Shown in pieces: positions 13,492 to 55,052 of a stretch of 64,000 nt of DNA. The stretch lies in NCBI GenBank assembly GCA_028282785.1, contig JANQHE010000037.1:62001-126000 (forward strand), read 5' to 3'. Made by a program: the position numbers and the translations under genes. Each line of letters starts with the position of its first letter. Positions within the stretch are counted from its first letter, which is position 1. The DNA comes from Bacteroidales bacterium. GTDB lineage: Bacteria; Bacteroidota; Bacteroidia; Bacteroidales; UBA12077. The notes beneath the pieces were generated by a model. That model saw only the letters and a list, made by a program, of their open reading frames with translations. It was not told the DNA's origin and ran no database searches.

Positions 13492-15000
13492 TTACTTTGA
13501 AGGTATGGTAAAACTAAATACAGACCCTTTTCCTTTAGATGATTCAACCCATATTCTACCGCCAAGAGCTTCTACGAAACCCTTACTAATAGATAAGCCC
13601 AATCCATTCCCCTGGTTATAATTCAGGAAATCAGTTTTTATTTGCCTGAAACGCTCGAAGATTTTGTTTTGCATTGATTTATCAATTCCAATACCTGTAT
13701 CTTTAATGTTAAATATTAACTGATCTTCTTTTATATCACAGTATAATTCAACTTTTCCTTTATCGGTAAATTTCAGTGCATTATTTATTAAATTGGAAAG
13801 AATTTGGGCTAATTTACTTTTATCTGTTATAATAGTTGTTAAATTTCCAGGATTTAAAACTTTATAGTCGAATGTAATATTTTTTTCATCAAATTTAATT
13901 TTAAAGCGCTGATATATTAGTTCTAAAAATGGAATTATTTTTACCTCTTCTTTAGTAATATCTACCTGTCCGGTTTCTATCATTGAAATATCCAAAATGT
14001 CACTAACTATAGTCAATAATTGATTGGAACAATCATCAATAACCTTAATATAGTTCTTTTTTTCCTCTTTAGTAGTGGAGTCGTGCCCTAGTAGTTTGGA
14101 AAACCCCATTATTCCGTTTAATGGTGTTCTGATTTCGTGGCTAAGGTTTGCAAGAAACGCAGATTTTAAACGGTCAGATTCCTGCGCTTTTTTAAGTGCA
14201 TTTTCCAACTCAGAAATAAATCTTTTTCTTTCTGTAATATCCTTTAAATATGACCTTGTACCAATTATTTTCCCGTTATCATCTAATATGTTGGTAACAG
14301 AGACATTTATATAAATTGTACTGCCATCTTTTTTTATGCCTTTGAAGTCATACTGAGGGGGTTGTTTTTTCCCGGCAATCCTATTTCTGTGAATTTGAAT
14401 TATTTTATTTAAGTCATCCGGATGAATAAATTTCTTTCTGGGTATTTTAACGATTTCTTCTTTTTTATAACCTAGTAAGTTTGCAAAATGTTTATTGAAG
14501 TATTTTATTCTTCCTTTCTCATCATCAGTAACTATTGCAATATTAGATAACTCTACTAAATCTTTATATTTTTTTTCTCTTTTTTCAATCTCTACCAGGT
14601 TATTCTTGCGTTCAGTAATATCGTTTATAATAACTATAATATTTTTGATCTTTTTTTTCTCATCTACAACAGGATCAGCTGTTATTTTCAAATATTTATT
14701 TCCGGCTTTTAGTTCAACAGATTGTCTTCTATGTGTTAGCTCAAGAGCATTAAATAAATTTTCATCAGAAAAAATTCCAACATGCGATACGATCTCAAGT
14801 AATAGTTTTCCAACTATTTCACTTTTAGGCTTTTTAATATACTTTCTCAAAGCATTATTACAATCTATTGCTTCTCCACGGTCATCAAGTATCAATAACA
14901 TTATGCTTAGAGAGTTATATACTTTTCTCCAAAATACTTTAGACATTTCCATTTCCTTATCAACCTCATCAAATCGTTCTATTTTCCTTTGTGCGAGCAT
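13492..15000 (-). CDS. Soluble PAS-PAS sensor histidine kinase
   Basis: A 502-residue kinase without membrane segments. Two PAS domains (about 22-130 and 138-255, the second with a PAC motif ending SYLKDITERKR) are followed by a short coiled coil, a HisKA domain with phospho-His near 288 (NLSHEIRTPLNG), and an HATPase domain with N box NNALKFT, G1 DTGIGI and G2 GNGLGLSISKG. It ends at FTIPSK, with no receiver domain. It lies 240 bases downstream of the chemosensory operon in the same direction. Its HisKA and ATPase segments resemble those of the hybrid kinase before it, so the two probably share an ancestor and may feed one pathway. Confidence 0.9.
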   Translation of the reverse strand: MLAQRKIERFDEVDKEMEMSKVFWRKVYNSLSIMLLILDDRGEAIDCNNALRKYIKKPKSEIVGKLLLEIVSHVGIFSDENLFNALELTHRRQSVELKAGNKYLKITADPVVDEKKKIKNIIVIINDITERKNNLVEIEKREKKYKDLVELSNIAIVTDDEKGRIKYFNKHFANLLGYKKEEIVKIPRKKFIHPDDLNKIIQIHRNRIAGKKQPPQYDFKGIKKDGSTIYINVSVTNILDDNGKIIGTRSYLKDITERKRFISELENALKKAQESDRLKSAFLANLSHEIRTPLNGIMGFSKLLGHDSTTKEEKKNYIKVIDDCSNQLLTIVSDILDISMIETGQVDITKEEVKIIPFLELIYQRFKIKFDEKNITFDYKVLNPGNLTTIITDKSKLAQILSNLINNALKFTDKGKVELYCDIKEDQLIFNIKDTGIGIDKSMQNKIFERFRQIKTDFLNYNQGNGLGLSISKGFVEALGGRIWVESSKGKGSVFSFTIPSK

Positions 15001-15240: not shown

Positions 15241-18200
15241 CTATTTATCTTTTTTAATATAATTATCTATCATATTAACCAATTCATCATAAATAATTGG
15301 TTTTGCAATGTAATTGTCACATCCGGCTGCCAATACTTTTTCTTCATCACCAACTAAGGCAAAAGCCGTTTGAGCAATTACTGGTATTTCGGGATGTTTT
15401 AGTTTTATTTCCTTGGTTGCAGTGAAACCATCCATAACAGGCATTTTTATATCCATCAATACCATATCAATATCATTGGTATCGCACATTTCTACCGCAT
15501 CTCTACCGTTTTTTGCCCTAATTACTCTCATTTCTTTTTGCTTTAATATTTCATAAAGATATTCATAGTTCATATCTTCATCTTCGGCGATAAGAACAAC
15601 TTTATCTTTAAAATCATCATTTAAGTCTATTGTATTGTTATCTTCTATGAAATCAGGCTTACTTATTTCTTCCAGTACGTGTGGTAACTTAAAGTAAATT
15701 TCTGTGCCTTTATTTAATTCTGAATGAATCCAAATTGAGCCACCGAGTGCTTCAACATAAGCTTTAACAATTGAAAGACCCAAGCCTGTTCCGCCATATG
15801 TTCGTGTAAGATCGCTTTCAACCTGCCAGAAACGATCGAAAATTCTTTCCTGATTTTCTTTACTAATACCTATTCCGGTATCTTTGACACAAAACTCCAA
15901 ATAACCTGATTTCATATCACAACTTATAACTATGTCTCCATCTTTGCTAAACTTAATTGCATTATTAACCAGGTTATTTATAATTTGACTTAATTTAACT
16001 TTATCGGTATTAACAAATTGCATATTTTCTCTCAAGTTATTATGCAGAGTTAATTTAAGTCCTTTTTCTATACATTTTGGTTCAAACTCATTACAAGTTG
16101 ATTTTAAAATATCATTCAGATAGAAATTTTCCTTTTGAATTTCAAACTGACCTGTTTCAATTCTTGATATATCAAGTATATCATCTATTATCCTGAGTAA
16201 TTGATGGCAGCTACCATTTATAATATCTATATAGCTTTCCTCTTTTTCTTTCGTAAGTTCTGAAACGACCAATAATTTTGAGAATCCTATTATTCCATTT
16301 AATGGAGTTCTAATTTCGTGTGATACATTAGCTAAAAAAGCAGATTTTAATCTATCACTTTCCTCTGCCTTTTGTTTAGCTTTCTCCAGTTCTGTTATAT
16401 CAGTTGAAATACTTGAAATTCCTACTACTTCACCATCCTTAAAAATGGGTTCACAAGTAATGTCTTTATAAATTACTTTATCACCCACTTTAAGCTTAAT
16501 TATTTTGTTTACTCTTTCCTTAGTTTTTAATACCGATTGTTTTAATTGATAAAGAGTATTGGCATCTTCTTTGTCAAAAATATCACTATCTCTTTTTCCA
16601 ATAATTTGTTTATCGTCGATTTTAAGATAGGAATTGTACATCCATGAATACTTTAAATCTAGGTCTTGATTGGAAACTGTTGTTTTTGAATTTTGTAAAC
16701 TAGACCTAAATCGTTGTTCATTTTCCTTAAGTAATATTTCTGTTTGCATTCTTTTATATGCAATTCCGATTGTGGACCCGATTTCCTCGAAAAAGTTAAT
16801 CATTTCAAGATTAAACATATTAGTCCTTTTATCATGAAACTGTAATAACCCTATTGTTTTTTTCCCCGACCGAAGAGGAATTAGAGCTATTGATTCATAA
16901 CCTTTGTTTTGGCATAAATTATTTTCAGGGACATTTAAATCATCATTTAAATATTCAGAAAATAATCTACTATAATTATTTGTCCAGAAACTCCCAATTT
17001 GAGTATAAAATGGTTTGTTATTATTAATACCTCCTGTAATTATTTTACCACATAAACATTTTAAAATAGCTTGTCCTTTTAGATCTCTAACAATTTCATT
17101 ATTCTCACCAATATCACATAGCAGATTATCGGTATTTACAAAATCAGAAGTATAACCTGTTGTATCATAATACGGATAATCTTCACCATCTTGCATCCTG
17201 ATGCCGATAGCCTCCAACCCTGTAAATTCTTTTAATTCCGATAGTATATCTTTAATTAATCTTTGCCATTCGTTTTTTCTATTCAGTATTGATAATATTC
17301 TAGCAGTAAATGCTTGTCTCTCTTCCGCAAGCTTTCGTTGTTCTTCCAAATCAATATTATTTAAAGCAAAAGCAATATCTTCCGCTATTTCTTTAAATAA
17401 ATGTTGTTGTTCACTATCTTCAACTATTTGTGCAGGTAAAGAAACCATTATTACTCCAAAACGCCTATTCTGTAATTTTAAGCACATTGCCAACTCTACA
17501 CCCTCTATTTTTTGCCCCGACTGATATCTTGGACACCCCTCACACACTGTCCTTGGGCTTTCTATTAATATTACATCATCTGCATTAAGCGACCTTTTAA
17601 TACAGTTTGGTACATAATTCTTAAAATCCGTTACACTAAAACCACTGGCATTCTTTTTAATACCATCGTCTACAAAGTCTATTATTTTCCCTTCTTTATC
17701 AGTAAGTGCTATCCATGCGTTATGAAAGACATTAGTTTGAGTAATTATATTACATGCTTCTTTTATTAATTTATGACGGTCCTTTTCCTTTATTGTAAGT
17801 TGATTGATATTTCTAATTGCACGTAAAACAGCGTTTATATCCTTTATATTCTGTGTTCTCTCTACAACTTTCTTCTCCAGGTTTTTATTTAATTTACTAA
17901 GTTCTGATTGTATTGTTTTTAATTCATCATTTGCTTCTTTAAGCTCATTACTTTTCAATACAGCATTTTCATATGTTGAAAAGAGAAGGTCTACAATTTG
18001 TAATCTGGAAGAGGTTATTAAGTATTTTTTTCCCGAAAAGAAAACCTCTAAACCAACATCTGTACTTTGATGTTTTCTCATCCTAAAATTCATTATTAAA
18101 TATTCAATTTTCGAAAGAAGGAATTCTTCACTGTATGGTTTTGTAATAAATGTATCTGCTCCACAATCAAGGCCCTTAATAATATCTACCGGATCCGAGA

Positions 18201-18456
18201 GCGACGTTAAGAGAATAACAGGAACGTCTTTTAAGCTATTATCAGATTTTATTTCCTTACACAACTCATAACCACTTTTCCCGGGCATCACTATATCACT
18301 TATTATTACATTAGGGATATTCTTTTTCAGTAGATTCATTGCTTCATTTGCATCGGCAGCGTGTTTAACAATGTAATCATTATTTTCCAATATATATTTT
18401 AATTTCTCGGCCTGTGTTAGACTGTCTTCTACGATTAATATTTTCATATTTTTCAT
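15241..18456 (-). CDS. REC-GAF-GAF-PAS-HisKA-HATPase-REC hybrid histidine kinase ending the chemosensory operon
   Basis: A soluble protein of about 1071 residues. The order is an N-terminal receiver (ILIVEDSLTQAEKL, phospho-Asp in VIISDIVMPG), a coiled coil (about 165-205), two GAF domains with Cys-rich segments (CEGCPRYQ and CLCGKIITGG), a PAS domain (about 590-690), HisKA with His near 713 (NVSHEIRTPLNG), HATPase (DTGIGI, GTGLGLSIVKAY), and a C-terminal receiver (VLIAEDEDMNYEYL, VLMDIKMPVMDG). The start is the ATG at 18456: it has a strong AAGGAGG six bases upstream, whereas the longer open frame from 18522 would begin inside cheB. It takes the place that the diguanylate cyclase has in Wsp operons, so it is the likely output, with the N-terminal receiver a plausible CheA target. 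That link is inference. Confidence 0.88.
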   Translation of the reverse strand: MKNMKILIVEDSLTQAEKLKYILENNDYIVKHAADANEAMNLLKKNIPNVIISDIVMPGKSGYELCKEIKSDNSLKDVPVILLTSLSDPVDIIKGLDCGADTFITKPYSEEFLLSKIEYLIMNFRMRKHQSTDVGLEVFFSGKKYLITSSRLQIVDLLFSTYENAVLKSNELKEANDELKTIQSELSKLNKNLEKKVVERTQNIKDINAVLRAIRNINQLTIKEKDRHKLIKEACNIITQTNVFHNAWIALTDKEGKIIDFVDDGIKKNASGFSVTDFKNYVPNCIKRSLNADDVILIESPRTVCEGCPRYQSGQKIEGVELAMCLKLQNRRFGVIMVSLPAQIVEDSEQQHLFKEIAEDIAFALNNIDLEEQRKLAEERQAFTARILSILNRKNEWQRLIKDILSELKEFTGLEAIGIRMQDGEDYPYYDTTGYTSDFVNTDNLLCDIGENNEIVRDLKGQAILKCLCGKIITGGINNNKPFYTQIGSFWTNNYSRLFSEYLNDDLNVPENNLCQNKGYESIALIPLRSGKKTIGLLQFHDKRTNMFNLEMINFFEEIGSTIGIAYKRMQTEILLKENEQRFRSSLQNSKTTVSNQDLDLKYSWMYNSYLKIDDKQIIGKRDSDIFDKEDANTLYQLKQSVLKTKERVNKIIKLKVGDKVIYKDITCEPIFKDGEVVGISSISTDITELEKAKQKAEESDRLKSAFLANVSHEIRTPLNGIIGFSKLLVVSELTKEKEESYIDIINGSCHQLLRIIDDILDISRIETGQFEIQKENFYLNDILKSTCNEFEPKCIEKGLKLTLHNNLRENMQFVNTDKVKLSQIINNLVNNAIKFSKDGDIVISCDMKSGYLEFCVKDTGIGISKENQERIFDRFWQVESDLTRTYGGTGLGLSIVKAYVEALGGSIWIHSELNKGTEIYFKLPHVLEEISKPDFIEDNNTIDLNDDFKDKVVLIAEDEDMNYEYLYEILKQKEMRVIRAKNGRDAVEMCDTNDIDMVLMDIKMPVMDGFTATKEIKLKHPEIPVIAQTAFALVGDEEKVLAAGCDNYIAKPIIYDELVNMIDNYIKKDK

Positions 18457-18462
18457 AATCAT

Positions 18463-18469
18463 CCTCCTT
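18463..18469 (-). promoter_or_regulatory. Strong Shine-Dalgarno that fixes the hybrid kinase start
   Basis: AAGGAGG on the minus strand starts directly after the cheB stop codon (TAA at 18472-18470) and is six bases before the ATG at 18456. ATGs at 18462 and 18447 are less well placed. Such a complete site is uncommon in this AT-rich genome. Confidence 0.7.
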
Positions 18470-19567
18470 TTATTTATTTTCTTTAACAGGTATTTCAACA
18501 CCAGCATAGCAATGCTCAACATTCTGCAAAACTTCAGCTATTTCCATAGGGTTCATGATATAATCCACTGCATTTAATTTTATAGCTGCGCCAGGCATTC
18601 CGTGTACAATAGAACTTTCCTTATCCTGGGCAATTGTTATAGAACCTGCTTCTTTTAACATTTTGAGTTCGTTTGCTCCATCTCTGCCCATGCCCGTAAG
18701 AATAATTCCTATTGCGTATTTTCCATATTCCTGAGCAATACTTTCAAAAAGGTGAGATACAGAAGGGCACAATCCATTGTGATTACTATCATGATCATAG
18801 TACTTATATAATTTTACTTTACCGGATTTATTCACTCCCATTTGATGACCATCAGGTGCAAAATAGATATTTCCGGGTTTTAATTGTAAGTTATCGGATG
18901 CCACGTGAACAGGAATCAATAATGAATTTTCCAACCACCCTAAAAAGCCATCGAGAAAACCTTCTGCGATATGCTGAACAACTAAAATTGGGTAAGGAAA
19001 TTTATGTGAGATTTTAGAAAATAATTTTTGAAGCACAAGAGGGCCTCCTGATGAAGAACCTATTGCAACTATTTTCTTTTTGTCGAAATCGCATTTTGAA
19101 GACTTAAATATTTTTGAAGTTAACGCTTTACATGGTTCATTAATCATTTTATATTTACGGGTAATAACCTTAACTTCAGACATTAGCTTAACTATTCTTA
19201 TCAAGTTTTTAGTTTGTCTTGCTTCATCGGGATGGCCTATACCTCTTGGTTTTTCTACAATCGAAAGCGCACCTGCTGCTAAAGCTTCCATTGATACTTT
19301 TACCTCGTTTGCATTTCTGCTGGCTGTAACAACAATAATAGGTATGGGAATTGTTGACATTATTACTCTTGTAGCTTCAAGCCCATCCATTATAGGCATA
19401 TCAATATCCATTGTTATAACATCGGGCCTATTCGTTTTTAGAAATTCAACTGCCTGCCTGCCATTACCTACATTTCCAACTACCTGAATTTCCGGGTCCG
19501 CACTTAATATGTATTGCAAATACTCGCTTACAACTTTTGAATCTTCAACAATTAAAACTTTTATCAT
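18470..19567 (-). CDS. cheB: CheB, receptor protein-glutamate methylesterase with receiver domain
   Basis: A 365-residue CheB. The N-terminal receiver has the acidic pair in VEDSKVV and phospho-Asp 54 (ITMDIDMP). The methylesterase domain has the triad S172 (GSSSGGP), H199 (VVQHIAEGF) and D296 (TGMGRDGANE). It would demethylate or deamidate the receptor encoded in the same operon, with activity raised by phosphorylation from CheA, giving the adaptation arm. It corresponds to WspF by position. The gene lies 15 bases after cheA. Confidence 0.95.
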   Translation of the reverse strand: MIKVLIVEDSKVVSEYLQYILSADPEIQVVGNVGNGRQAVEFLKTNRPDVITMDIDMPIMDGLEATRVIMSTIPIPIIVVTASRNANEVKVSMEALAAGALSIVEKPRGIGHPDEARQTKNLIRIVKLMSEVKVITRKYKMINEPCKALTSKIFKSSKCDFDKKKIVAIGSSSGGPLVLQKLFSKISHKFPYPILVVQHIAEGFLDGFLGWLENSLLIPVHVASDNLQLKPGNIYFAPDGHQMGVNKSGKVKLYKYYDHDSNHNGLCPSVSHLFESIAQEYGKYAIGIILTGMGRDGANELKMLKEAGSITIAQDKESSIVHGMPGAAIKLNAVDYIMNPMEIAEVLQNVEHCYAGVEIPVKENK

Positions 19568-19582
19568 TTGTTTTATGTTTTA

Positions 19583-21859
19583 TTAAACTAATTTTTCAAT
19601 AACTTCCAATAAATTACCCTGGTCAAAACTACTTTTGACTATATAAGCATTTGCACCAACTTCCATACCTCGCTCTCTGTCCTCACGGTTGGAAAGAGAT
19701 GTTACTAAAACAATAGGTTTTTCCAATAAAACCTCATCAGCGCGGATTTTTGACGTAAGATCGAAACCGTTCATACGCGGCATATCCACATCAGAAAGAA
19801 CTAAATCAAAATTTTCTTCTTTTAATTTGGTAAGTCCCTCAACACCATCAATTGCTGTTTTAACCTGATAACCCGCGGTTTCTAATATATTTTTCAAAAG
19901 CATTCTTGAAGTAATTGAATCTTCTACAACTAATACAGATTTTTTTCTATCTTCTTTTTCTGTTTCTGTTTGTTTTATAACAATTGAAGTTTCTTTTATT
20001 GCAGATTTTAAAAGGTCGGATACATTGAGAATGGGAATTATTTTTCCGGAACCCAATACTGTGGCTCCCGAAATATTTCTGACACGTTTTAAATGTGTAT
20101 TGAAGTTTTTAACTAAAACTTCCTCTTCATCTATAATTTCATCAATTGCAAAAGCAATTTGATTCTCTTGCTTTCCTAAAATCATAGCTAAAATGTAGTT
20201 CCCTTCGGTTTCCTGATAAGGAACCTCCAGGACATCAGTTAAATAAACCAATGGAATTACACCCTTATTAAAAGGAATAGTTGCCTTATTTTTAACAGTT
20301 TTTATATCTGACTTTTGTAATCTTATTACTCTTTCGATTTTTGAAGTAGGAATCATATAATTCAGGTCACCTGCCTTTATTTGCACTCCCCTGAAAGTTA
20401 CAACCGATAATGGAATTTGAATTTTAAATTCCGTGCCCTTGTCTTTTTCCGTATTCACGGTAATAGCACCACCCAGCTGTTCAATTTTTTCGTGCACAAT
20501 AGCTAACCCTAACCCTCTACCGGAAATATCAGTAATAATGTTACTTGTAGAAATTCCTGATTTAAAGATATATGATAAAAGGTTGTTAACGGTAATCTTT
20601 GAAGTTGCTTTCGATGTATTTTTTTTCTGCTTTACATATTTTGCTTTAAGATTTTCAAGGTCAATTCCTGCACCATCGTCTGAAATATTTAATTCAACAT
20701 TATTATTTTCAAGTCTCTCTATATTTATCCTAATTATTCCTGCTTCTGTTTTATTCTTTTGTTTTCGAATCTCCGGCTTTTCAATACCATGGTCGACACA
20801 ATTTCTAATGAGATGCATTAAAGGATTTCGCATTTCTTCCAGAATTCTTCTATCAATTTCAATGTCATCGCCCTGAACAACCAGATCGATTTTTTTACCT
20901 TTATCTCTTGATAAATCTCTTACTGCTTTTGGGAAAACATCAAGTATAGCAGAAAAAGGAATTGATATTATTTTTTTTATATTTTCAAGAAGAATTTCAA
21001 TTTTTAACCCGGTATCATAAGATTCCTGTACAGAGAGCTTCTTCAACTCGGTTAATTCATTTTCAAGAGTTTTAAAAAAAGGGGTCGACCATTCGAAAAA
21101 GCGGATGAGGTTTTTAACATTCTCTTCTTCTTTAGTAAGTTTTTCGTTTTTTTGCTTTTTTTCCAGTTTTTGCAGAATATCTCTGACTGCCGGAAATACT
21201 TTTGAAAATTCTCTTTTCCAATCAGCCATTTTTTGAAGAGTCGATTTTAAATCTTCACTATGCTGAATTGCTGTAAGTTTTAATGAAAGCATCTCTTCTA
21301 CCTGAACTAATAAATCGTCTAATTTTCCTATATTAACACGTATTGTCTCGCTTGATACTTTTTTGGTTGCTACAAAATTTTCTGATTTGGCAGATTTGGA
21401 TTTCAAGTCTTTCTTTTCATTCAAACCGAAATCCTTAATTTCATCTGTTACCCCTTGTTCAACCTTTCGCAGATTCATACTTATCCCGGAAATCTTTTGA
21501 TTTAATTCATCCGTAATTTTCGCATCAGGCACAACCAATATTTCACTGAGAATATTTACAGCTAAATGAAGTATATCAAAAACACCTGGAATCAATTTTA
21601 TCTTCTTATTTTTTAATGCTGAAAAAACGTTTTCCACATCTTGACAAATGGATTCTATATCATTTATATTTACAGCACGCGAGGCACCTTTAAGACTATG
21701 TGCTTCTCTGAACATAGCTTCAATTAGTTCCTTTTCTCGAGATTCTGACTGGCCTTTCTCCAATTCAATTAGATTATAAGCCATATGTTGAACTGCCTCT
21801 TCGGCCTCAATCTTAAAAGTCTCTAATATCCGTTTCCTAAATTTCTCCCTTTCATTCAT
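19583..21859 (-). CDS. cheA: CheA-type kinase with fused C-terminal receiver (WspE-like)
   Basis: A 758-residue hybrid CheA. The HPt domain carries phospho-His 54 (REAHSLKGASR). A linker, a dimerisation helix pair and the HATPase domain follow, with LMHLIRNCVDHGIEKPE, DDGAGIDLENL and GRGLGLAIVHEKIEQLGG. A CheW-like regulatory domain (about 490-620) and a C-terminal receiver with D690 (VLSDVDMPRMNG) complete it. There is only one HPt domain and no separate P2 domain. The ATG overlaps the receptor stop (ATGA at 21859-21856). A fused receiver is the hallmark of the WspE/FrzE/PilL-type kinases in alternative (non-flagellar) chemosensory systems; it may act as a phosphate sink or relay. Confidence 0.94.
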   Translation of the reverse strand: MNEREKFRKRILETFKIEAEEAVQHMAYNLIELEKGQSESREKELIEAMFREAHSLKGASRAVNINDIESICQDVENVFSALKNKKIKLIPGVFDILHLAVNILSEILVVPDAKITDELNQKISGISMNLRKVEQGVTDEIKDFGLNEKKDLKSKSAKSENFVATKKVSSETIRVNIGKLDDLLVQVEEMLSLKLTAIQHSEDLKSTLQKMADWKREFSKVFPAVRDILQKLEKKQKNEKLTKEEENVKNLIRFFEWSTPFFKTLENELTELKKLSVQESYDTGLKIEILLENIKKIISIPFSAILDVFPKAVRDLSRDKGKKIDLVVQGDDIEIDRRILEEMRNPLMHLIRNCVDHGIEKPEIRKQKNKTEAGIIRINIERLENNNVELNISDDGAGIDLENLKAKYVKQKKNTSKATSKITVNNLLSYIFKSGISTSNIITDISGRGLGLAIVHEKIEQLGGAITVNTEKDKGTEFKIQIPLSVVTFRGVQIKAGDLNYMIPTSKIERVIRLQKSDIKTVKNKATIPFNKGVIPLVYLTDVLEVPYQETEGNYILAMILGKQENQIAFAIDEIIDEEEVLVKNFNTHLKRVRNISGATVLGSGKIIPILNVSDLLKSAIKETSIVIKQTETEKEDRKKSVLVVEDSITSRMLLKNILETAGYQVKTAIDGVEGLTKLKEENFDLVLSDVDMPRMNGFDLTSKIRADEVLLEKPIVLVTSLSNREDRERGMEVGANAYIVKSSFDQGNLLEVIEKLV

Positions 21860-23592
21860 CTTGCCACCTCATACTGATCCATTAATTCTTTTAATTTATT
21901 ACCTAACTTCTTTAATTCATCAACAGAGTTAACTGATTGCTGAGTACTTGCAGCAGCCTGTACGCTGGCATCTTTAATATTTTCCATTGCAGAAACCATT
22001 TGATCCATGCCTTCTAGCTGCTGTTGGCTGGATGCTGCTATTTGGATCATTACATTAGCAGCTTCATCAACACTATCGGAAAGAGTTTTAATTGTTTCAC
22101 CTGAAATAGAGGTAAGTTTCAATCCCTCCTCAACTGCTTTACCTCCCTCTTCAGTAGCCATTACTGCTGCACTAACGGATTTCTGAATATCCTTTAATAT
22201 ATTACCTACCTGAGCTGTTGCTTCTTTGGAACGTTCGGCCAAATTTTTAATTTCCTGAGCTACCACCGTAAATCCTTTTCCCTGTTCCCCTGCCTTTGCC
22301 GATTCAATAGCAGCATTCACAGCTAACAAATTTGACTGTTCAGCAAGATCATTCACTGTTGCTGTTATCTCTCCAACAGCCTGGCTCTGTTCACTTAAGT
22401 TTACAACCATATTTGCTATGGATTCCATTTGCTGTTTTACCCTATGCATACCTTCAATGGTGTTATTTATGGCTTTTGCTCCTTCTTTTGAAATTTCCGT
22501 TGTTTTAATGGCACTTTCAGATATTTCTTTTGCTTTATGGTTAGAAACTTCGGCTGTTTGTTTTACTTCTTCAACTGTGGTGGTTGTTTCGCTTACAGAT
22601 GTTGCAGTTTCGGAAGCACTGGAAGCCATTTGAGTTACAGATGCCATAATTTCACTTGTTGAAGAAGCCAAGACATTTACACCTTCGGTAATTTCACTAA
22701 TCTGGCTGCGTAACCGTTCAACCATGATTTTAAATGCAATGCCCATAGTATCTTCATCAGAAAGAGGATTAACCGATATTTTAAGGTTCCCGTCAGCAAT
22801 TGCCTTTGCCTGTTCAGCTTTTTCACGCATGCTTTTTTGCATAATTTTAAAAGACTCTGCCAATTTCCCTACTTCATCCTTTTGGTTTATTGTAATCTCC
22901 TGGCTTAAATCTCCCAATGAAATCCTACTTGCTATCTCTGAAATTTTCCCGATAGGATAAGCTATAATTCTTGTTAAATAAACAGTTAAAAAAACAACGA
23001 ACAAAAATGCTATGACAACAATCCAGATAATTTCAACCTTTGCTACTTGTGTATCTCTTATACTTAGTGAAGATCGCTCTTCAAGTAACCTATTTTCTTC
23101 CTTTGTCATTTCACCCATCACATCACGAATTTCATCCATTGCTTTTTTACCTACATCTGTAACAACAATTCTATGTGCCGCGTCAAATCCATCATTCCTG
23201 CGAAGATTAATTGTTTGGTCAAGTTCATTAAGTTTTTCCGAAACCAAGGATTTAAGCTTTATGATATGCTGTTGCTGAACGATGTTATCGCTGGTTAACT
23301 TTTTAAGGTGATCAATATCTTTTTCAAGATTATTAAGTGCATTATTATATGGCTCAAGATAATTCTCCATCCCTGTTATCAAATAACCACGTTGCCCTGT
23401 TTCTGCATCTTTCAAATCTCCAAGAACCAGTTCAATATTCCGTAAAACCTCATGTGTATGAGCAACCCAGTCTGCCTCTTTTTTTAAACGATTCAAATTT
23501 TGATAAGATATTATACCAATAATTAATAAGAGCAATAGGACTATTCCAAAACTTATTGCTATTTTGAATGCTATAGATAATTTTTTCATCAT
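21856..23592 (-). CDS. Methyl-accepting receptor with CHASE3 periplasmic domain (WspA-like)
   Basis: A 578-residue receptor. TM1 is at about 10-29. The periplasmic CHASE3 domain has the diagnostic DAETGQRGYLITG near 62-74. TM2 is at about 188-210, followed by HAMP (PIGKISEIASRISLGDL) and a second HAMP-like stretch (about 260-300). The cytoplasmic signalling hairpin has the conserved tip EQSNLLAVNAAIESAKAGEQG. There is no C-terminal CheR-tethering pentapeptide. The start is the ATG at 23592, five bases after GGAGG (23598-23602); the TTG at 23595 is unlikely. It is the only receptor gene here, in the middle of the operon, so it is probably dedicated to this pathway. The stimulus is unknown; CHASE3 domains sense extracellular or envelope signals. 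Confidence 0.93.
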   Translation of the reverse strand: MMKKLSIAFKIAISFGIVLLLLLIIGIISYQNLNRLKKEADWVAHTHEVLRNIELVLGDLKDAETGQRGYLITGMENYLEPYNNALNNLEKDIDHLKKLTSDNIVQQQHIIKLKSLVSEKLNELDQTINLRRNDGFDAAHRIVVTDVGKKAMDEIRDVMGEMTKEENRLLEERSSLSIRDTQVAKVEIIWIVVIAFLFVVFLTVYLTRIIAYPIGKISEIASRISLGDLSQEITINQKDEVGKLAESFKIMQKSMREKAEQAKAIADGNLKISVNPLSDEDTMGIAFKIMVERLRSQISEITEGVNVLASSTSEIMASVTQMASSASETATSVSETTTTVEEVKQTAEVSNHKAKEISESAIKTTEISKEGAKAINNTIEGMHRVKQQMESIANMVVNLSEQSQAVGEITATVNDLAEQSNLLAVNAAIESAKAGEQGKGFTVVAQEIKNLAERSKEATAQVGNILKDIQKSVSAAVMATEEGGKAVEEGLKLTSISGETIKTLSDSVDEAANVMIQIAASSQQQLEGMDQMVSAMENIKDASVQAAASTQQSVNSVDELKKLGNKLKELMDQYEVAR

Positions 23593-23607
23593 CAATTCCT
23601 CCGGATT

Positions 23608-24186
23608 TTATACTTCATCATTTATAATGATCATATCATCAGTTAAGATTTTTTTTATATTTAATAATATCGATCGATTTTCGGTGATACCCTCCAGGTA
23701 GTCATTTTTTTCCCCTTTAAGCGTAGAAATAGTTGCCTGAAGTTTATCGGTATATATATATGTACTACCAATTATTTCATCTGCTAAAATTCCGAGTTCA
23801 ATATTCTGATATTTTAATAATATCACCTTGTTAAGATTTGTTATAGCCTTTTCCGAAAGGTTTAAAAATTCTTTTATATTGATAACAGCTAATATTCTTC
23901 CGTTAATATTAATTATTCCTAAAATAAATTCCGGAGTACAGGGTAGAGGGGTTAATTCTTTTAAAGAAATCACAGAAGTAATATAGTTCGAATCAATCGC
24001 ATAGCTTTCGTTTGCAAGTTTAAACTCCAATACTTCCAGTTGAGCTCCCTTTATTTCTTCTTCCGTAATACTAATTTTTAAAAGTTCAGCTCTTTGTTTA
24101 AGTATTTCTCTTGCTTTATCCTCATCTTTATATACTATCTCTTTGACCATTGTTTCCTTAATATCGATTTTATTTTGATTTGCCAT
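23608..24186 (-). CDS. cheW: CheW-type adaptor, second copy
   Basis: A protein of about 192 residues: an N-terminal charged helical extension (1-50) and a CheW domain (about 50-185) with LEFKLANESYAIDSNYITSVI, PEFILGIININGRILAVINI and VILLKYQNIELGILADEIIG. It links the receptor to CheA. The ATG at 24186 is preferred. A TTG at 24201 would overlap the cheR stop codon (TTGA) and add five residues. The N-terminal extension distinguishes it from the first cheW of the operon. Two CheW proteins flanking a CheR repeats the WspB-WspC-WspD arrangement. Confidence 0.9.
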   Translation of the reverse strand: MANQNKIDIKETMVKEIVYKDEDKAREILKQRAELLKISITEEEIKGAQLEVLEFKLANESYAIDSNYITSVISLKELTPLPCTPEFILGIININGRILAVINIKEFLNLSEKAITNLNKVILLKYQNIELGILADEIIGSTYIYTDKLQATISTLKGEKNDYLEGITENRSILLNIKKILTDDMIIINDEV

Positions 24187-24197
24187 TACTACTTTTT

Positions 24198-25679
24198 TCA
24201 AGTTTTAATTGCAGATATAATTTCTGTGAATCTTCCAACAGTTAACCCGTCCGATTCAGGAACTATCTCATCGGGATTATAATGTGAAAGAATATTTATC
24301 GCGTTATTAAAGTATTTTTTACCGGTGCTGTTATGTCCCCTTTTAACATTAATGTTTCCGAGTAAAAAATGTGCCAGGGCAAAATTATGATCGAGATAAA
24401 TTGCTTTTTTTAAGGATGATATAGCTTCTTCGTCGTTTCCCTGTTCCTGCAATATGGTTGCTATCAGGTAGTATAAGCTATAATCCGATTTATCTAATGC
24501 CAATCCTTTTTCGCATAAAAGCCTTGCTTCATCTAATTTCCCTATATTTGCCTTTGTTTTTGCCAAAAGGATAACTATTTGTTTCTGATTTTTTTTATCA
24601 TGAATTAATAAACTTGTTAAAAGCTTTTCTGCCTGCTCAAACAATCCTTGCTTAAATAAAGCAACAGCTTGCTCGTAATTTGAAACCTGCTTTATTTTAT
24701 TATCTATTGGCAATTTCTCTGGAATATTATCTTTTATAACTACATTTTTATTTGCTGTATCTTTAACTATTTCGTCGGTATGAGAAAATTCGGGTACAAA
24801 CCGGTTATAAGTTTTCACTTTAACTTGTTCTATTATTTCTTTCTGATATATTGTTTGTCCGCAATAATCAATTTTAGAAAACTTTTTTGATAAAACGTTT
24901 GATGTTTCTACCGGGCTAACAATGAGTATTCCTCCCGGTAAAAGAGATTTATATAATCGATTAACAACTTCCTTAATTCCTGTCTGCGAGAAATATATCA
25001 TTACATTTCGACAAAAAATAATATCCATTGCGTTTGTATTATTAATTAATGAAGGATACATATCTTTTACCAAGTTAAGCGGAGCAAACGTTACCATATT
25101 CTTTACTTTTGGTAAAATCTGGTATCGGCTATCTCCTACTTTTTTAAAATAACCGGAAAAGAACCAGCCTGGATTATTACGAAACGACCATTTTGAATAT
25201 ATTCCCTTTTCGGCTTTTTTTAATAGAACCGGATTTATATCTGTAGCCAGAATTGTTATGTTCCAATCTTTAATATTCGGAATAGTTCTAAGAAGAGTTA
25301 TTGCTATGGTATAAGGCTCTTCCCCTGATGCACAACCTGCACTCCATATTCTAAGTTGCTTGCCGTCTCTACCTTTATTTTGTAATAAATTAGGGATAAA
25401 TGTTCGTTCTAAAAATTCAAAGCTTTTCTGTACGCGTAAAAAGTAAGTTTCGCCAATAGTCAAATAACTTGCTAAAACCTCAATTTGCTTATTGGTTGCT
25501 TTATTTTTCAAAAGCCACTCAACAAATTTAAACGTATCTTTAAATTCGAATTCTTTTGCTGCCGGTTCAATCCTTTGTATTAATTCCCTTTCCTGCTTCT
25601 CAGAAAAATTTAATCCTAAATGAGTTAACAGGTACTTCCTTAATTCGAATAATACAGGTTTATTAAGTTTATCGTTCAT
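24198..25679 (-). CDS. cheR: CheR methyltransferase with C-terminal TPR repeats (WspC-like)
   Basis: A 493-residue protein. An N-terminal CheR helical domain (1-75) is followed by the SAM-dependent methyltransferase domain (about 80-275) with IGETYFLR, the SAM-binding motif RIWSAGCASGEEPYTIA (110-126), and FCRNVMIYF. A linker precedes three to four TPR units (about 330-470, including YSLYYLIATILQEQGNDEEAI). It methylates glutamates of the receptor, opposing CheB. The TPR extension is the feature that sets WspC/FrzF-type CheR apart from the flagellar enzyme. It starts 76 bases after the first cheW. Confidence 0.94.
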   Translation of the reverse strand: MNDKLNKPVLFELRKYLLTHLGLNFSEKQERELIQRIEPAAKEFEFKDTFKFVEWLLKNKATNKQIEVLASYLTIGETYFLRVQKSFEFLERTFIPNLLQNKGRDGKQLRIWSAGCASGEEPYTIAITLLRTIPNIKDWNITILATDINPVLLKKAEKGIYSKWSFRNNPGWFFSGYFKKVGDSRYQILPKVKNMVTFAPLNLVKDMYPSLINNTNAMDIIFCRNVMIYFSQTGIKEVVNRLYKSLLPGGILIVSPVETSNVLSKKFSKIDYCGQTIYQKEIIEQVKVKTYNRFVPEFSHTDEIVKDTANKNVVIKDNIPEKLPIDNKIKQVSNYEQAVALFKQGLFEQAEKLLTSLLIHDKKNQKQIVILLAKTKANIGKLDEARLLCEKGLALDKSDYSLYYLIATILQEQGNDEEAISSLKKAIYLDHNFALAHFLLGNINVKRGHNSTGKKYFNNAINILSHYNPDEIVPESDGLTVGRFTEIISAIKT

Positions 25680-25755
25680 AATCTTTTATTATTAAAAGAC
25701 TCATAATACTTATTGACCATAATCAGCTTATGGGTTTACAATAATTATATCGTTG

Positions 25756-26241
25756 CTATGTCTTGCTGGTAACTTTCTTTTTGATTTTAACCCGTTCAAT
25801 TGCTTTTTCATTTTGTTCAAAGAATGTTTCAAGATCATGGATTATGACTATTTCGTCATTAAACTTAATAGATCCTTCAACATATTCTGAATTCAGCAAT
25901 ATTTTATCTGTTTTAATGATTTCATTATCATCCCTTTCAATAATACCACTAACAAAGTCGACCCATAAGGCAACTTTTTTTGAAGATATGGTCGCTATTA
26001 TTAACTGATCGCTTAGGCTTATTTCTTTCCCGATTAGGTCAAATAATATTCTAAGGTTTATTACAGGTAAAAACTCTCCTTTAAAATTGATAGTTCCTAA
26101 TATAAATTTAGGAGCTTTTGACAATGGAGTGACCTCTACAATGCGCACAACTCTGTCAACATTTGAAAGGTGAAGTGCGAATTTCCGGTTTTCTACCCTA
26201 AAGACTACATATTTCTTTTTCTTTAACATTAAGCATTTCAT
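25756..26241 (-). CDS. cheW: CheW-type adaptor, first gene of the chemosensory operon
   Basis: A 161-residue single-domain CheW: YVVFRVENRKFALHLSNVD, APKFILGTINFKGEFLPVI and VALWVDFVSGIIERDD are the expected strands. The C-terminus is a short basic tail (KIKKKVTSKT). Starts at 26241 or 26229 are both ATG; the first is used here. Its divergence from the second CheW in this operon suggests non-equivalent roles, as for WspB and WspD. Confidence 0.9.
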   Translation of the reverse strand: MKCLMLKKKKYVVFRVENRKFALHLSNVDRVVRIVEVTPLSKAPKFILGTINFKGEFLPVINLRILFDLIGKEISLSDQLIIATISSKKVALWVDFVSGIIERDDNEIIKTDKILLNSEYVEGSIKFNDEIVIIHDLETFFEQNEKAIERVKIKKKVTSKT

Positions 26242-26485: not shown

Positions 26486-27136
26486 TCAATCAACCAGATT
26501 CTCCTTAATTGCATACCTGATTATTTCAGCAGTACTTTTTAAATTCATCTTATCCATAATACGTTCACGATAAGTGCTAATAGTTTTAGGACTAAGAGAA
26601 AGTTCAACAGCAATATTCTGATTTGATTTACCTCTTGCTAACATACACATTACCTCCAATTCTCTATCCGAGAGGATTTCATGAACCGGCTTATCAGATG
26701 CATTTCCTATTTCATGGACTATTTTTTCAGCAAGAGTTGTTGTTATATATTTTTTTCCAATAGCAACTTTTCGAATAGCTATAATTAATTCGTCCGGTGT
26801 ACTTGATTTTGTCAAGTAACCGGAAGCACCTAGCTTTAATGATCTCAAAGCATACTGTTCTTCAGGGTGAATACTTAGCATAAGCACAGCCACTTTAGGT
26901 TTTATATTCTTTATTTCTTTGAGAAGACTTAATCCGTTTCTATCCGGCATAGATATATCCAGCAAGATTACATCAATTTTTTGTTTAATTAGTTCATTTA
27001 GTAATTCATGGCCATTACTGGCTTCGTATATAACTTTAATGCCAGGACAATCATCGAGTATTTGTTTTAATCCCTTTCGGACTATCGGATGATCATCTGT
27101 AATTAATACTTTAATTATTTCAGCTTCTTTAATCAT
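26486..27136 (-). CDS. NarL/FixJ-type response regulator
   Basis: A 216-residue regulator: receiver domain (about 8-125) with acidic pair TDD (13-15), phospho-Asp 60 (VILLDISMPDRNG), Ser/Thr and Lys switches (MLSIH, LTKSS), and a LuxR-type helix-turn-helix (about 148-212: LSDRELEVMCMLARGKSNQNIA). It overlaps the partner kinase stop by eight bases, so the two are co-translated. It lies next to the chemosensory operon in the same direction, so shared transcription is possible but not shown. Confidence 0.94.
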   Translation of the reverse strand: MIKEAEIIKVLITDDHPIVRKGLKQILDDCPGIKVIYEASNGHELLNELIKQKIDVILLDISMPDRNGLSLLKEIKNIKPKVAVLMLSIHPEEQYALRSLKLGASGYLTKSSTPDELIIAIRKVAIGKKYITTTLAEKIVHEIGNASDKPVHEILSDRELEVMCMLARGKSNQNIAVELSLSPKTISTYRERIMDKMNLKSTAEIIRYAIKENLVD

Positions 27137-28532
27137 ATGGTATTTTCACCAATAATTTTGTTCCTTTATTTAATTCTCCGGTAATTTTTACTTTTCCTTT
27201 AAAAACACTGGCTCTTTCCTTTATTCCCATTAATCCAAATGATTTAGAACCTTCAATATTGCTTTTTGTAATTCCTTTACCATTATCTTCAATCATTACA
27301 TTTAATAAATTGCTCTCTTTTTCAATGCTTACTTTTACTATGGTTGCATTTGCATGTCTTACCACGTTTGTAAGTGCTTCCTGTATAATTCTAAATATTG
27401 CCACTGTTAATTGTTTATTAATTTTTATTCCTTCCGGAGATACATCAAATTGATATTCAATATTTGATTTTCGCATATATTCTTCCAAAAGCCACTCAAC
27501 TGCAGATATTAATCCTAAGTTATCCAATATAGAGGGTCTAAGTTCAGTAGCAATTTCCTGTACATTTTTCATAGATAAATTTAGCAATTCAGCCATATCA
27601 TTTAACTTATCTGACAAATGAGGTAAGTCTTTTATAATTCTAGTTTTAAGCCACGATAAATCCATATGTAGTGCTGTTAGCTTCTGGCCTAAATCATCAT
27701 GCAAATCAAGGGCAATTTTCTTTTTTTCGTTCTCAATTACCTCTTGCATATGTAATGTTAATTCGTGAAGTTTTTTGTTGGATTTATTTAATTCAATTTC
27801 GGTATTCTTTCGTTTCGTTATATCAGAACAATTAACAGTATAGCCCATTATTTCATCGTATTCTATAATTGGGGCAATACGGGCATCATACCACACAACC
27901 TTGTCATCAGGAAAAACGAATTTGGTTTCATATATTTTCGCCTTTTTTGTTTTCCTTACATCTTTCAGGCTTTCCTTAACTCTTTCTACAAACTGAGAAG
28001 GTATTATATTATAAATGGAATTATTAACTATATCTTCCTTTTTTAATCCCGATGTTACCCAATTAATAAACCTAACTTTACCATGCAAATCGAGAATCAA
28101 AATATGGTTGGGAGAATTCATTGTTAATGAATGCCAGCTTTCTTCACTTTTATTTAAGTCATTTTCAGTTTTCTTTTGTTTGTAAATATCCCTAAAAGTA
28201 AATGTTAATATATTTTCTTGGTTTATACTAAGTTTATTAACAATGACTTCTACCAGAACAATCTTCCTATTTTTCGTAGGTATCGGAAGTTCTAAATTGA
28301 ACGGAAGATTTAGTTTTGATATATTAAAGAAACTATCTTTACTTTCTAAGATATTTTGGAATAACCGTACTTCCCAAACTACTTTTTCCGTTAACTCATA
28401 GTTTTGATATCCAAAGAATAAGTAAACTGAAGAATTTACATCTAATATCACACCTGTATTTGCGTCAACAAGGATTATTGCTTCCTGTGATGTTTTAAAT
28501 AATTGTTGATATACTATTTCGTTAACTTTCAT
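27129..28532 (-). CDS. PAS-PAS sensor kinase of the NarX/DegS (HisKA_3) type
   Basis: A 467-residue soluble kinase with two PAS domains (about 5-118 and 130-243, the latter with a PAC motif ending NCSDITKRK). A coiled coil, a HisKA_3 domain with phospho-His 278 (IALDLHDDLGQKLTALH) and an HATPase domain (EALTNVVRHANA, EDNGKGI, GLMGIKERA) follow. No membrane segment is seen, so it senses an internal signal such as redox or a ligand. It is paired with the overlapping NarL-type regulator. It is transcribed divergently from truA across 182 bases. Confidence 0.93.
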   Translation of the reverse strand: MKVNEIVYQQLFKTSQEAIILVDANTGVILDVNSSVYLFFGYQNYELTEKVVWEVRLFQNILESKDSFFNISKLNLPFNLELPIPTKNRKIVLVEVIVNKLSINQENILTFTFRDIYKQKKTENDLNKSEESWHSLTMNSPNHILILDLHGKVRFINWVTSGLKKEDIVNNSIYNIIPSQFVERVKESLKDVRKTKKAKIYETKFVFPDDKVVWYDARIAPIIEYDEIMGYTVNCSDITKRKNTEIELNKSNKKLHELTLHMQEVIENEKKKIALDLHDDLGQKLTALHMDLSWLKTRIIKDLPHLSDKLNDMAELLNLSMKNVQEIATELRPSILDNLGLISAVEWLLEEYMRKSNIEYQFDVSPEGIKINKQLTVAIFRIIQEALTNVVRHANATIVKVSIEKESNLLNVMIEDNGKGITKSNIEGSKSFGLMGIKERASVFKGKVKITGELNKGTKLLVKIPYD

Positions 28533-42315: not shown

Positions 42316-43080
42316 TTATTTATTTAGAACTTTTTCCAAAACGTTTTTAAATTCCTCTTTTCGACGGCGTGCTAACTGTACCGTTGAGTTGTTACTCATT
42401 ACAATTTGGTTTTTATCCGAATCATAGCGCTTTACATACTGTATATTTATTAAAAATGACCGGTGTGCCCGAAAAAAAACCGATGAATTTATCTGATTTT
42501 CAATATGTTTTAGTGGTTTAGTAATTAACATATTCTCTCCACATTTTAAATTTATTTCGGAGTACATGCTTTGCGCCTCAATAAAAATAATATCATTAAT
42601 ATTTATAAGCTCAAATCCGGCACTGGAATTAATTTTTAGTTTCCTGTCATCAGGATTACCAGCCTCATTTATTAATTTTTTATAGTCTACACTACTTTCT
42701 TTATTATTTAGTATTTTGTGCTTAACTTTTAAAAGCGCATCATTTATTTCAGATACGGAAACTGGTTTTAGAATATAGTCGGCAGCATTGTTTTTTATTG
42801 CCTGGATAGCATAATTTTCATATGCAGTTGCAAAAATGATTTCAAATTTTATTTCAGGAATACTTTCAAGTAGCTCAAAACCTGTTAATTCAGGCATTTC
42901 AATATCAAGAAAAACCACCTGTGGGCTATATTTTAAAATTAATCCAATACCTTCGAGTGGATTTGTGGTAACAGCCAAAACTTCGCATTTAACCTGACTA
43001 AGCTTAATTGAATTTTCAATAGCTTCTATGGCATGTTTTTCATCATCTATAATTACTACACCAAGTTTCATATTATCCAT
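42316..43080 (-). CDS. LytTR-family response regulator
   Basis: A 254-residue regulator. The receiver domain has acidic residues IDDEKHA (11-17), phospho-Asp 59 (VVFLDIEMPELTG) and the Lys switch in YILKPV. The LytTR DNA-binding domain (about 148-250) has NINDIIFIEAQSMYSEINL and FFRAHRSFLINIQYVKRYD. The ATG at 43080 (MDNMKLGVVIIDD) is preferred over the TTG at 43110. It is ten bases after the kinase gene, so the pair is co-expressed. LytTR regulators bind pairs of direct repeats upstream of target promoters; the targets are unknown. Confidence 0.93.
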   Translation of the reverse strand: MDNMKLGVVIIDDEKHAIEAIENSIKLSQVKCEVLAVTTNPLEGIGLILKYSPQVVFLDIEMPELTGFELLESIPEIKFEIIFATAYENYAIQAIKNNAADYILKPVSVSEINDALLKVKHKILNNKESSVDYKKLINEAGNPDDRKLKINSSAGFELININDIIFIEAQSMYSEINLKCGENMLITKPLKHIENQINSSVFFRAHRSFLINIQYVKRYDSDKNQIVMSNNSTVQLARRRKEEFKNVLEKVLNK

Positions 43081-43090
43081 TAGGTTTAGG

Positions 43091-53414: not shown

Positions 53415-55052
53415 ATGGGCTATTCTGATTTAAACATATCTAAAGAAAAACTGGAGGATGAGATTCTTCATCTAAAACAAGAGATTTTTAATTTAAAGAA
53501 AGAGCAAGAAAGACTAAAATCACAAGAGAATATTAGTGAAAAAGAAAGGTTGTTCGAATTAATGTTTAAGGAAGCCGGTATTGGAATCGGAATAATTGAT
53601 AAAGACCTAAGAATTTGTAAATATAATAAGAGTTTCTACGATTTATTCGGATATAAACCAGTTGATCTAAAAGATAAAACATATCTCGATTTAATTCCGA
53701 AAAATAGCGGTGAAAATGCCATAAAAATAATTCGTGATATGTTTGATTCTAAGTTAGATAAATATATAACCGAAGCTGTTTATTTAACAAAGGATCAAAA
53801 AAAAATATGGCTTAAACTTGTTGCTACGGTAATAAAGGACCAAAACGGGAATCCTGAATTTATACTGGGAATGGGTGAAGATATTACTGAAAGGATCGAA
53901 TCCAGAAATAAGCTTGAGGAAGCCAAAGCTAAAATAGAAGAGTCAGATAAATTAAAGTCAGCATTTCTGACAAACATGTCACATGAGATTCGTACTCCAT
54001 TGAATGCTATAATTGGATTTTCTGAACTAATTGCCGAACCGACAATTGATCAACAATCGCGTAAAGAATTTGCTGAGCAGGTATCTGAAAGCAGTAATAT
54101 GTTACTTAAGCTTATTGACGATATTATTGATATGTCTCAACTTGATAGTGGTAATCTAAAAATAAATAATAGAAAATTCAATATTTCTAAAGTTTTAAAT
54201 AATTTGTATGAACAATTTATTAAAGAACAAGCCAGAAGTAAAAAAAATATTGAATTACTACTACACAATCCTTTTGGAGATTCCATTGCCTATATTGAAA
54301 CAGATGAATTCAGGTTTAATCAAATCTTTAATCATTTATTAAATAATGCACTAAAATACACACACAAAGGATTTATTGAATTTGGTTTTGATAGTAACCA
54401 ACATGATGAACCTGTTTTTTATGTTCGAGATACTGGAATTGGTATACCGAATGAAAAGTTAGATACAATATTTAATCATTTTACTAAAATAGAAGACCGA
54501 ACAACTTTGTATAGAGGAACAGGTATAGGTCTAACTATTACTAAAAAACTGGTAAATTTGTTAGGTGGTAAAATCTGGGTTGAATCAAACTTAGGAATCG
54601 GTTCAATATTCTATTTTTCTTTACCAAACAAAGTAATGTTTCTGGATATTGGAAATAAAAATGGGCAAAAAATAAATAATTGGATAGGAAAGAAGGTTTT
54701 AGTTGCAGAGGATGAAGTATCAAATTACGAAGTAATTAAAGCCTCACTAGCCCGAACACATATATGTTTAGACTGGGTTAAAAATGGTAAAGATGCTGTA
54801 CAAAAGTGTTTGGAAATAGATTACGATCTGGTTTTAATGGATATTAAGATGCCTGTACTGGATGGCATTGATGCAACCAGGAAAATAAAAGCATTTAAGC
54901 CAGATTTACCAATAATTGCACAATCTGCATTTGTTTTAAAAAACGAACGAGATTTATGTATTGATGCAGGGTGCGATGAATACATACCCAAACCAATAAA
55001 ATCATATGCCTTACTTGAGATGATAGAAAAATTCTTTGCTAACGATAAGTAA
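53415..55052 (+). CDS. PAS hybrid histidine kinase with receiver domain
   Basis: A 545-residue soluble protein: coiled coil (about 10-45, hydrophobic heptads), PAS domain (about 48-165, PAC ending GEDITERIESR), HisKA with His near 189 (NMSHEIRTPLNAI), HATPase (NNALKYTHKG, DTGIGIP, GTGIGLTITKKL), and a C-terminal receiver (VLVAEDEVSNYEV, VLMDIKMPVLDG). The output must be another protein, since there is no HPt or DNA-binding domain. Its last 14 bases overlap the convergent sulfatase gene's end. Confidence 0.9.
   Translation: MGYSDLNISKEKLEDEILHLKQEIFNLKKEQERLKSQENISEKERLFELMFKEAGIGIGIIDKDLRICKYNKSFYDLFGYKPVDLKDKTYLDLIPKNSGENAIKIIRDMFDSKLDKYITEAVYLTKDQKKIWLKLVATVIKDQNGNPEFILGMGEDITERIESRNKLEEAKAKIEESDKLKSAFLTNMSHEIRTPLNAIIGFSELIAEPTIDQQSRKEFAEQVSESSNMLLKLIDDIIDMSQLDSGNLKINNRKFNISKVLNNLYEQFIKEQARSKKNIELLLHNPFGDSIAYIETDEFRFNQIFNHLLNNALKYTHKGFIEFGFDSNQHDEPVFYVRDTGIGIPNEKLDTIFNHFTKIEDRTTLYRGTGIGLTITKKLVNLLGGKIWVESNLGIGSIFYFSLPNKVMFLDIGNKNGQKINNWIGKKVLVAEDEVSNYEVIKASLARTHICLDWVKNGKDAVQKCLEIDYDLVLMDIKMPVLDGIDATRKIKAFKPDLPIIAQSAFVLKNERDLCIDAGCDEYIPKPIKSYALLEMIEKFFANDK

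Follow-up and report, generated by a model that had tools for sequence, protein, structure and literature searches.

A Bacteroidota chemosensory operon with a receiver-linked histidine kinase as its probable output

Described systems and the window operon

The Wsp gene set of Pseudomonas, WspA to WspF together with WspR, is a described counterpart of the operon studied here, a chemosensory operon of seven co-directional genes on the minus strand of a Bacteroidales contig (JANQHE010000037.1, of which we analysed a stretch of 64,000 nucleotides, hereafter the window; the operon spans window positions 26241-15241). Both sets hold two CheW proteins, a CheR fused to TPR repeats, a receptor, a CheA ending in a receiver, a CheB and then a protein with an N-terminal receiver. 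WspR is a REC-GGDEF protein (PMC3447774, PMC6391922), whereas the window output is a receiver-histidine kinase. The original prediction for this DNA drew the comparison with Wsp, which stands as far as gene content goes; it was wrong in taking a GGDEF protein as the expected output, and its description of a kinase output as uncharted finds no support. The output is of a known kind, because about 40% of the response regulators in cheR-TPR clusters carry a HisKA-HATPase module, and phosphorylation of the receiver likely modulates the attached kinase (PMC3447774).

The Che3 system of Rhodospirillum centenum (CheA3-CheS3-CheY3) provides a precedent in which phosphotransfer from CheA3 to REC1 of CheS3 has been shown to control a second kinase (PMC3868531). 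A CheA3 without its own receiver aspartate phosphorylates CheS3-REC1, REC1 and histidine mutants of CheS3 have opposite phenotypes, and it has been proposed that the CheA3 receiver is a sink and that phosphorylation of REC1 inhibits the CheS3 kinase (PMC3868531). Che3 and the window operon share a CheA with a C-terminal receiver, two CheW proteins, CheR, CheB, one receptor and, within the che cluster, a second histidine kinase with a phosphorylatable N-terminal receiver. CheS3 is built as REC-REC (the latter without aspartate)-PAS-HWE kinase, whereas the window protein is a HisKA (PF00512) kinase with GAF-GAF-PAS and a C-terminal receiver; likewise the R. centenum cluster holds CheY3, whereas the window operon has no CheY. 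Comamonas FlmD, considered as a further precedent, was dropped, being a single-domain receiver (PMC6391922).

The window operon carries several traits of the alternative cellular function (ACF) class of chemosensory systems. A multidomain response regulator within the cluster and a CheR-TPR fusion are both linked to ACF, and clusters of that sort with a receiver-kinase share with the window CheR-TPR as well as a multidomain receiver-kinase (PMC3447774); a CheA with a C-terminal receiver and without P2 follows the trend reported in PMC10782961. The discussion of PMC3447774 lists CheR-TPR for Chloroflexi, Cyanobacteria and Alpha- to Deltaproteobacteria, the word start 'bacteroid' is absent from the main text of that paper, and among the matches listed in the open-licence PMC literature there was no paper on this Bacteroidota system. 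The range of the known kinase-output kind may thus extend slightly, to Bacteroidota.

All seven genes lie where the original prediction had placed them and have the domains that it had named. The first cheW (25756..26241; PF01584, E 3.4e-25) is followed by cheR with C-terminal TPR repeats (24198..25679; PF01739, E 5.8e-49, and PF07719, E 1.6e-11), a second cheW (23608..24201; PF01584, E 4.7e-25), a CHASE3-HAMP-MCP signal chemoreceptor (21856..23595; PF05227, E 1.9e-47, PF00672 and PF00015), cheA (19583..21859; Hpt, dimerisation, HATPase, CheW and REC domains in Pfam, no P2 match), cheB with a receiver (18470..19567; PF01339, E 2.4e-54, and NF001965 above its cut-off) and the gene of a soluble output kinase of 1071 residues (15241..18456), which Pfam resolves as REC1-linker-GAF-GAF-PAS-HisKA-HATPase-REC2. 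REC1, the proposed CheA target, occupies 18073..18456, and behind it comes a conserved linker of 63 residues without Pfam match (17902..18090). The dimerisation domain of CheA is weak in Pfam (E 0.0054, under the curated cut-off). In the receptor, 142 residues follow the hairpin glutamate, which by residue count is compatible with 20 heptads; a 40-heptad receptor is an ACF trait.

The phosphorylation sites are intact. H54 of the CheA Hpt domain and D690 of its receiver are invariant in 8 of 8 aligned proteins, the output kinase has D54 in REC1, H713 in the kinase and D1002 in REC2, and the REC1 residues E10, D11, D54, T84 and K106 are kept in 28 of 28 aligned proteins, an alignment that includes tandem copies, an Alteromonas protein and the distant second copy of genome G517. 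A CxxCP cysteine pair in the first GAF domain, considered as a shared cofactor site, was rejected, as it occurs in the window protein only (1/28). The gaps between the seven genes are, in order, 76, -4, 12, -4, 15 and 13 bp. As to the predicted ATGA or near-zero junctions, the first 4-bp overlap has a TTG start and the second is an ATGA, so that there is one true ATGA in total. For the output kinase a start at 18456 is more likely than one at 18522, as AAAGGAGG is followed there by the ATG, 13 bp past cheB, and the ribosome site ahead of it is rated good. Promoter and terminator scans gave a signal no higher than in shuffled sequences.

Conservation of the receiver kinase beside one CheA type

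This CheA type has a conserved REC1-kinase partner. Among the genomes of 147 relatives (own included) 55 match CheA at E <= 1e-20; the long hybrid type is found in 8 of them (7 of the 146 others), and the remaining 47 matches are weaker and mostly cover residues 290-620. A CheA profile run on 395 genomes of the phylum (own included) matched 46 at E <= 1e-100 and 14 at E <= 1e-190, the latter being 13 of 394 besides the own genome. Gene order was read in the resulting set of 21 genomes (8 + 13), which was chosen for this CheA type and includes the window. A REC1 gene comes after cheB in 21/21 if G330 and G517 are included, which yielded no cheB and have the REC1 gene behind cheA, and in 20 of the 21 it is fused to a kinase. 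This supports the original prediction that the last gene belongs to the system; absence of the hybrid kinase from orthologous operons, named beforehand as an observation that would refute it, was not what we found. The operon order is beyond chance because gene order is kept in the orthologous operons. In two genomes a PF05635 gene, coding for a protein of the 23S rRNA intervening-sequence type, lies between cheA and cheB (L096:4063-4422 and L097:8593-8952).

REC1 is specific to this CheA type. When the window REC1 was searched in the 21 genomes, the best match was the che-adjacent copy in 20, the exception being G224; che-adjacent copies score at least 112 bits and copies elsewhere at most 83.3 bits, a ceiling set without the extra G224 locus and the tandem copies present in G031 and G505. 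The linker profile gave 26 matches in these genomes, of which 24 lie in the che operon and the other two at the extra G224 locus. As the profile derives from these very proteins, what is telling is the lack of any further match at E <= 0.001. Against solved structures the linker gave nothing credible, and REC1 plus linker matched 3gt7 best, over the receiver only.

The rest of the output protein varies. A C-terminal receiver was detected in 7/21 che-adjacent genes and undetected in 14/21, and 10 of the 21 che-adjacent proteins are short REC-kinases of 417-426 residues; Pfam scans of three such proteins (G123, G302 and G505) showed REC-HisKA-HATPase alone. In the CheA tree, the 21 proteins and one CheA from a Niveispirillum plasmid form one group (SH-aLRT 99, quick tree), in which the GAF and PAS domains and the last receiver are confined to one part; therefore a last-receiver relay cannot be the general mechanism, and the original proposal that the signal continues by phosphorelay is weakened. 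The part common to Bacteroidota is CheA with a REC1-linker-kinase, that is gating of the kinase and not a last-receiver relay, because the last receiver is undetected in 14 proteins and 10 are short REC-kinases. Tandem REC1 kinases occur in two genomes, two copies in G505, where a second, larger one stands behind the short one, and three in G031 (L055:348-9083), where the three REC1-linker kinases follow one cheB and are perhaps parallel outputs of one CheA.

The linker of G165 matched one of 72,556 plasmid records at E <= 1e-3, an Alteromonas che cluster. Alteromonas macleodii plasmid pMIT1002 (NZ_OX359242) shares with the window the order cheW-cheR-cheW-mcp-cheA(REC)-cheB and has a REC1-linker-HisKA-HATPase protein with two receiver matches nearby. 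It differs in that this kinase is divergent and one gene, an EAL regulator, away, in that its CheR has no TPR match and in that the cluster has a separate Hpt protein.

A probable signalling route from CheA to the kinase

We favour, at a probability of roughly two in three, an ACF-type chemosensory system whose CheA steers the REC1-linked kinase. The CHASE3 receptor would sense something outside the cytoplasm, the two CheW proteins would link it to CheA, and CheR-TPR and CheB would tune receptor methylation. The envelope or surface signal of the original prediction is a putative one, taken by analogy from Wsp. Phosphate from the CheA Hpt domain would pass to CheB, to the C-terminal receiver of CheA, probably a sink or brake, and to REC1, which when phosphorylated would act through the conserved linker to raise or lower the activity of the histidine kinase joined to it. 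In this lineage GAF and PAS domains would supply extra cytoplasmic inputs, and the kinase would then phosphorylate a further target, in the window protein either directly or through its own C-terminal receiver. The direction of phosphate flow, the gating and the final target are what we infer here. The analogy with CheA3 and CheS3 suggests, most simply, that CheA sets kinase activity by phosphorylating REC1; the signal most likely goes to a second signalling enzyme and not to a motor. Within Bacteroidota, a REC1-kinase output is the norm for one lineage of CheA and no exception. REC1, linker and kinase form the conserved part and can be told apart from GAF, PAS and the last receiver, which are lineage-specific; the forms of 417-426 residues are small and suited to phosphotransfer and structural work, and the linker offers a sequence tag for finding such outputs.

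The sensor domains and the C-terminal receiver of the kinase, with its aspartate, also fit a flow in the reverse direction or both ways, in which the kinase, driven by GAF and PAS, loads REC2 and then the Hpt domain of CheA, so that it would feed the che system as another input and not serve as its output. An Hpt domain is the usual acceptor from the receiver of a hybrid kinase. Such domains are scarce here, with three matches in the genome, two of them inside CheA proteins. The constant part of the family is nevertheless REC1 plus kinase, 10 of the 21 che-adjacent proteins have just 417-426 residues, and in R. centenum CheS3 passed no phosphate to the receiver of CheA3, in an experiment whose acceptor was this receiver and not the Hpt domain (PMC3868531). 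We consider reverse flow unlikely. The sole Hpt match outside CheA is a 120-residue protein beside a STAS-domain protein (L116:7724-8451, on contig C9 of the same genome).

Several observations weigh against CheA as the donor of REC1, or against the kinase as its dedicated output. The che-adjacent copy of G224 is a REC plus linker without kinase; a different contig of this genome carries two extra REC1 genes, of which one encodes a REC-kinase; the two lie near a cheW and diverge from a pair of HisKA_3-like kinase and LuxR genes. In five of the 21 genomes (G228, G181, G150, G031 and G220) the che genes are accompanied by a stand-alone receiver, which in those genomes could be what CheA really targets; the window operon yielded none. 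A separate CheY as the CheA target is one of the findings that the original prediction had named as refuting its reading, and these five genomes speak partly against it. After cheB, the Niveispirillum plasmid has a 388-residue gene without Pfam match that is not REC1, its CheA sitting on a long branch with unsure placement, and a Sinorhizobium plasmid cluster has no gene of the REC1 kind in that position (338 plasmid records have a CheA match, none covering 80% of CheA; these two clusters were read). In the second, distant CheA cluster of G517 and G330 a receiver-kinase without linker comes after cheB, so kinase output is not unique to this CheA group. REC1-linker kinases also stand away from che genes in G471, G396 and G201; given these and the extra copies of G224, REC1 can have donors other than CheA.

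The linker is likewise found beyond this CheA type, and as a feature of che operons only it was rejected, since genomes without this CheA match too. Over the 395 genomes 40 match at E <= 0.001; at E <= 1e-18 there are 16, of which 14 have this CheA and G471 and G396 do not, and the other 24 are weaker. At 11 linker loci without this CheA (2 strong, 9 weak) no che genes were seen with queries from the window operon. Five linker proteins scanned with Pfam are REC-guanylate cyclases (G442, G337 and G435), a REC-kinase (G471) and a REC-PAS-kinase-REC protein (G396). In G396 and G201 the linker protein comes after a hybrid kinase, which in G396 ends in an Hpt domain; an Hpt donor can thus adjoin the linker protein away from che genes too, in this small sample. 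At three loci (L151, L157 and L158) a receiver with a weak form of the linker is fused to a guanylate/adenylate cyclase domain, and no che genes were seen nearby.

Regulators vary among the more distant CheA clusters of the phylum. We read eight of the 32 genomes with CheA at E 1e-100 to 1e-190, in addition to the second clusters of G330 and G517. G262 has a REC-SpoIIE phosphatase after cheB (L112:6757-7962), G147 a REC-GAF-cyclase regulator, G152 a receiver protein without a second Pfam domain, G497 and G197 single receivers, and G370, G533 and G342 a receiver protein of 395-403 residues. A single-protein scan of genome contigs gave 12 loci with one ortholog, L040. The reading covered five of them, four WOR-3/Stahlbacteria loci among the 12 have a different gene order, and six of the other seven match little beyond the receiver.

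The upstream regulator pair and the rest of the genome

The original prediction had passed over a pair of genes on the same strand (28532-26486) that ends 244 bp ahead of the first cheW. A PAS-PAS-HisKA_3 sensor kinase (27129..28532, minus strand; PF07730, PF02518 and PAS), possibly an associated module, overlaps by 8 bp a LuxR/NarL-type response regulator (26486..27136, minus strand; PF00072 and PF00196), a possible transcriptional output. Of the 18 operons whose upstream flank is available, 6 have such a pair (in G019, G505 and G165 the contig ends before the upstream genes); in G031 it is rearranged, with the LuxR gene on the opposite strand. It accompanies 6 of 8 expanded-kinase operons versus 0 of 9 minimal-kinase operons (one-sided p 0.0023, uncorrected for kinship, the two kinds being largely separate in the CheA tree, and with G224 excluded for want of a kinase).

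Its position, and the same pair at three cheW-mcp loci without cheA in this genome, would suit a CheA that reports mainly to the LuxR-type regulator, directly or with the HisKA_3 kinase, the last gene being accessory. An adjacent HisKA_3 kinase is the expected donor of a LuxR regulator, which counts against this, as do the 0 of 9 minimal-kinase operons and the best LuxR match lying elsewhere in G228 and G150, on which ground the regulator was rejected as a strict partner. We regard this alternative as distinctly improbable. Within the favoured route from CheA to the REC1-linked kinase, the LuxR regulator would be a candidate end point only. A bolder version of that route seems unlikely: REC1-linker would serve a single CheA lineage as its own docking and gating module, with REC1 reading CheA and the 63-residue linker turning this into control of the kinase, and the window kinase would feed the HisKA_3/LuxR pair, so that the array would control transcription via two stacked two-component systems.

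As originally predicted, the operon has no GGDEF protein, and the single GGDEF match of the genome is on another contig (C42). A phmmer search of the 64 kb with queries from the operon, among open reading frames of at least 60 residues, turned up no stand-alone receiver; other receiver proteins in the window are a 264-residue one (42316-43110) and a further hybrid kinase (53415-55052). Contig C54 carries another, full chemotaxis cluster (CheA, CheW, CheR, CheB, receptors and stand-alone receivers), which raises the reading that the window array governs motility through a CheY of that cluster while the last gene merely tunes. We hold this to be very improbable: the C54 cluster has its own signalling set, its CheA and that of the window are distant from each other in the tree, REC1 is specific to the window CheA type, and FliG_C has no match in the genome, although no search was made for CheX, CheD, further motor genes or pilus genes.

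Downstream of the operon lies a PAS-PAS-HisKA kinase (13492-15000). The three cheW-mcp loci of the genome (L059, L060 and L061, on contigs C55, C36 and C63) all have, like the window operon, genes of a PAS-HisKA_3-like kinase and of a LuxR-type regulator in front of them, and in addition a receiver of about 135 residues ahead of cheW. Pfam identified all three proteins in L060 and the receiver in L061, phmmer the others. The kinase/LuxR pair with cheW-mcp is a repeated cassette of chemoreceptor and transcription regulator.

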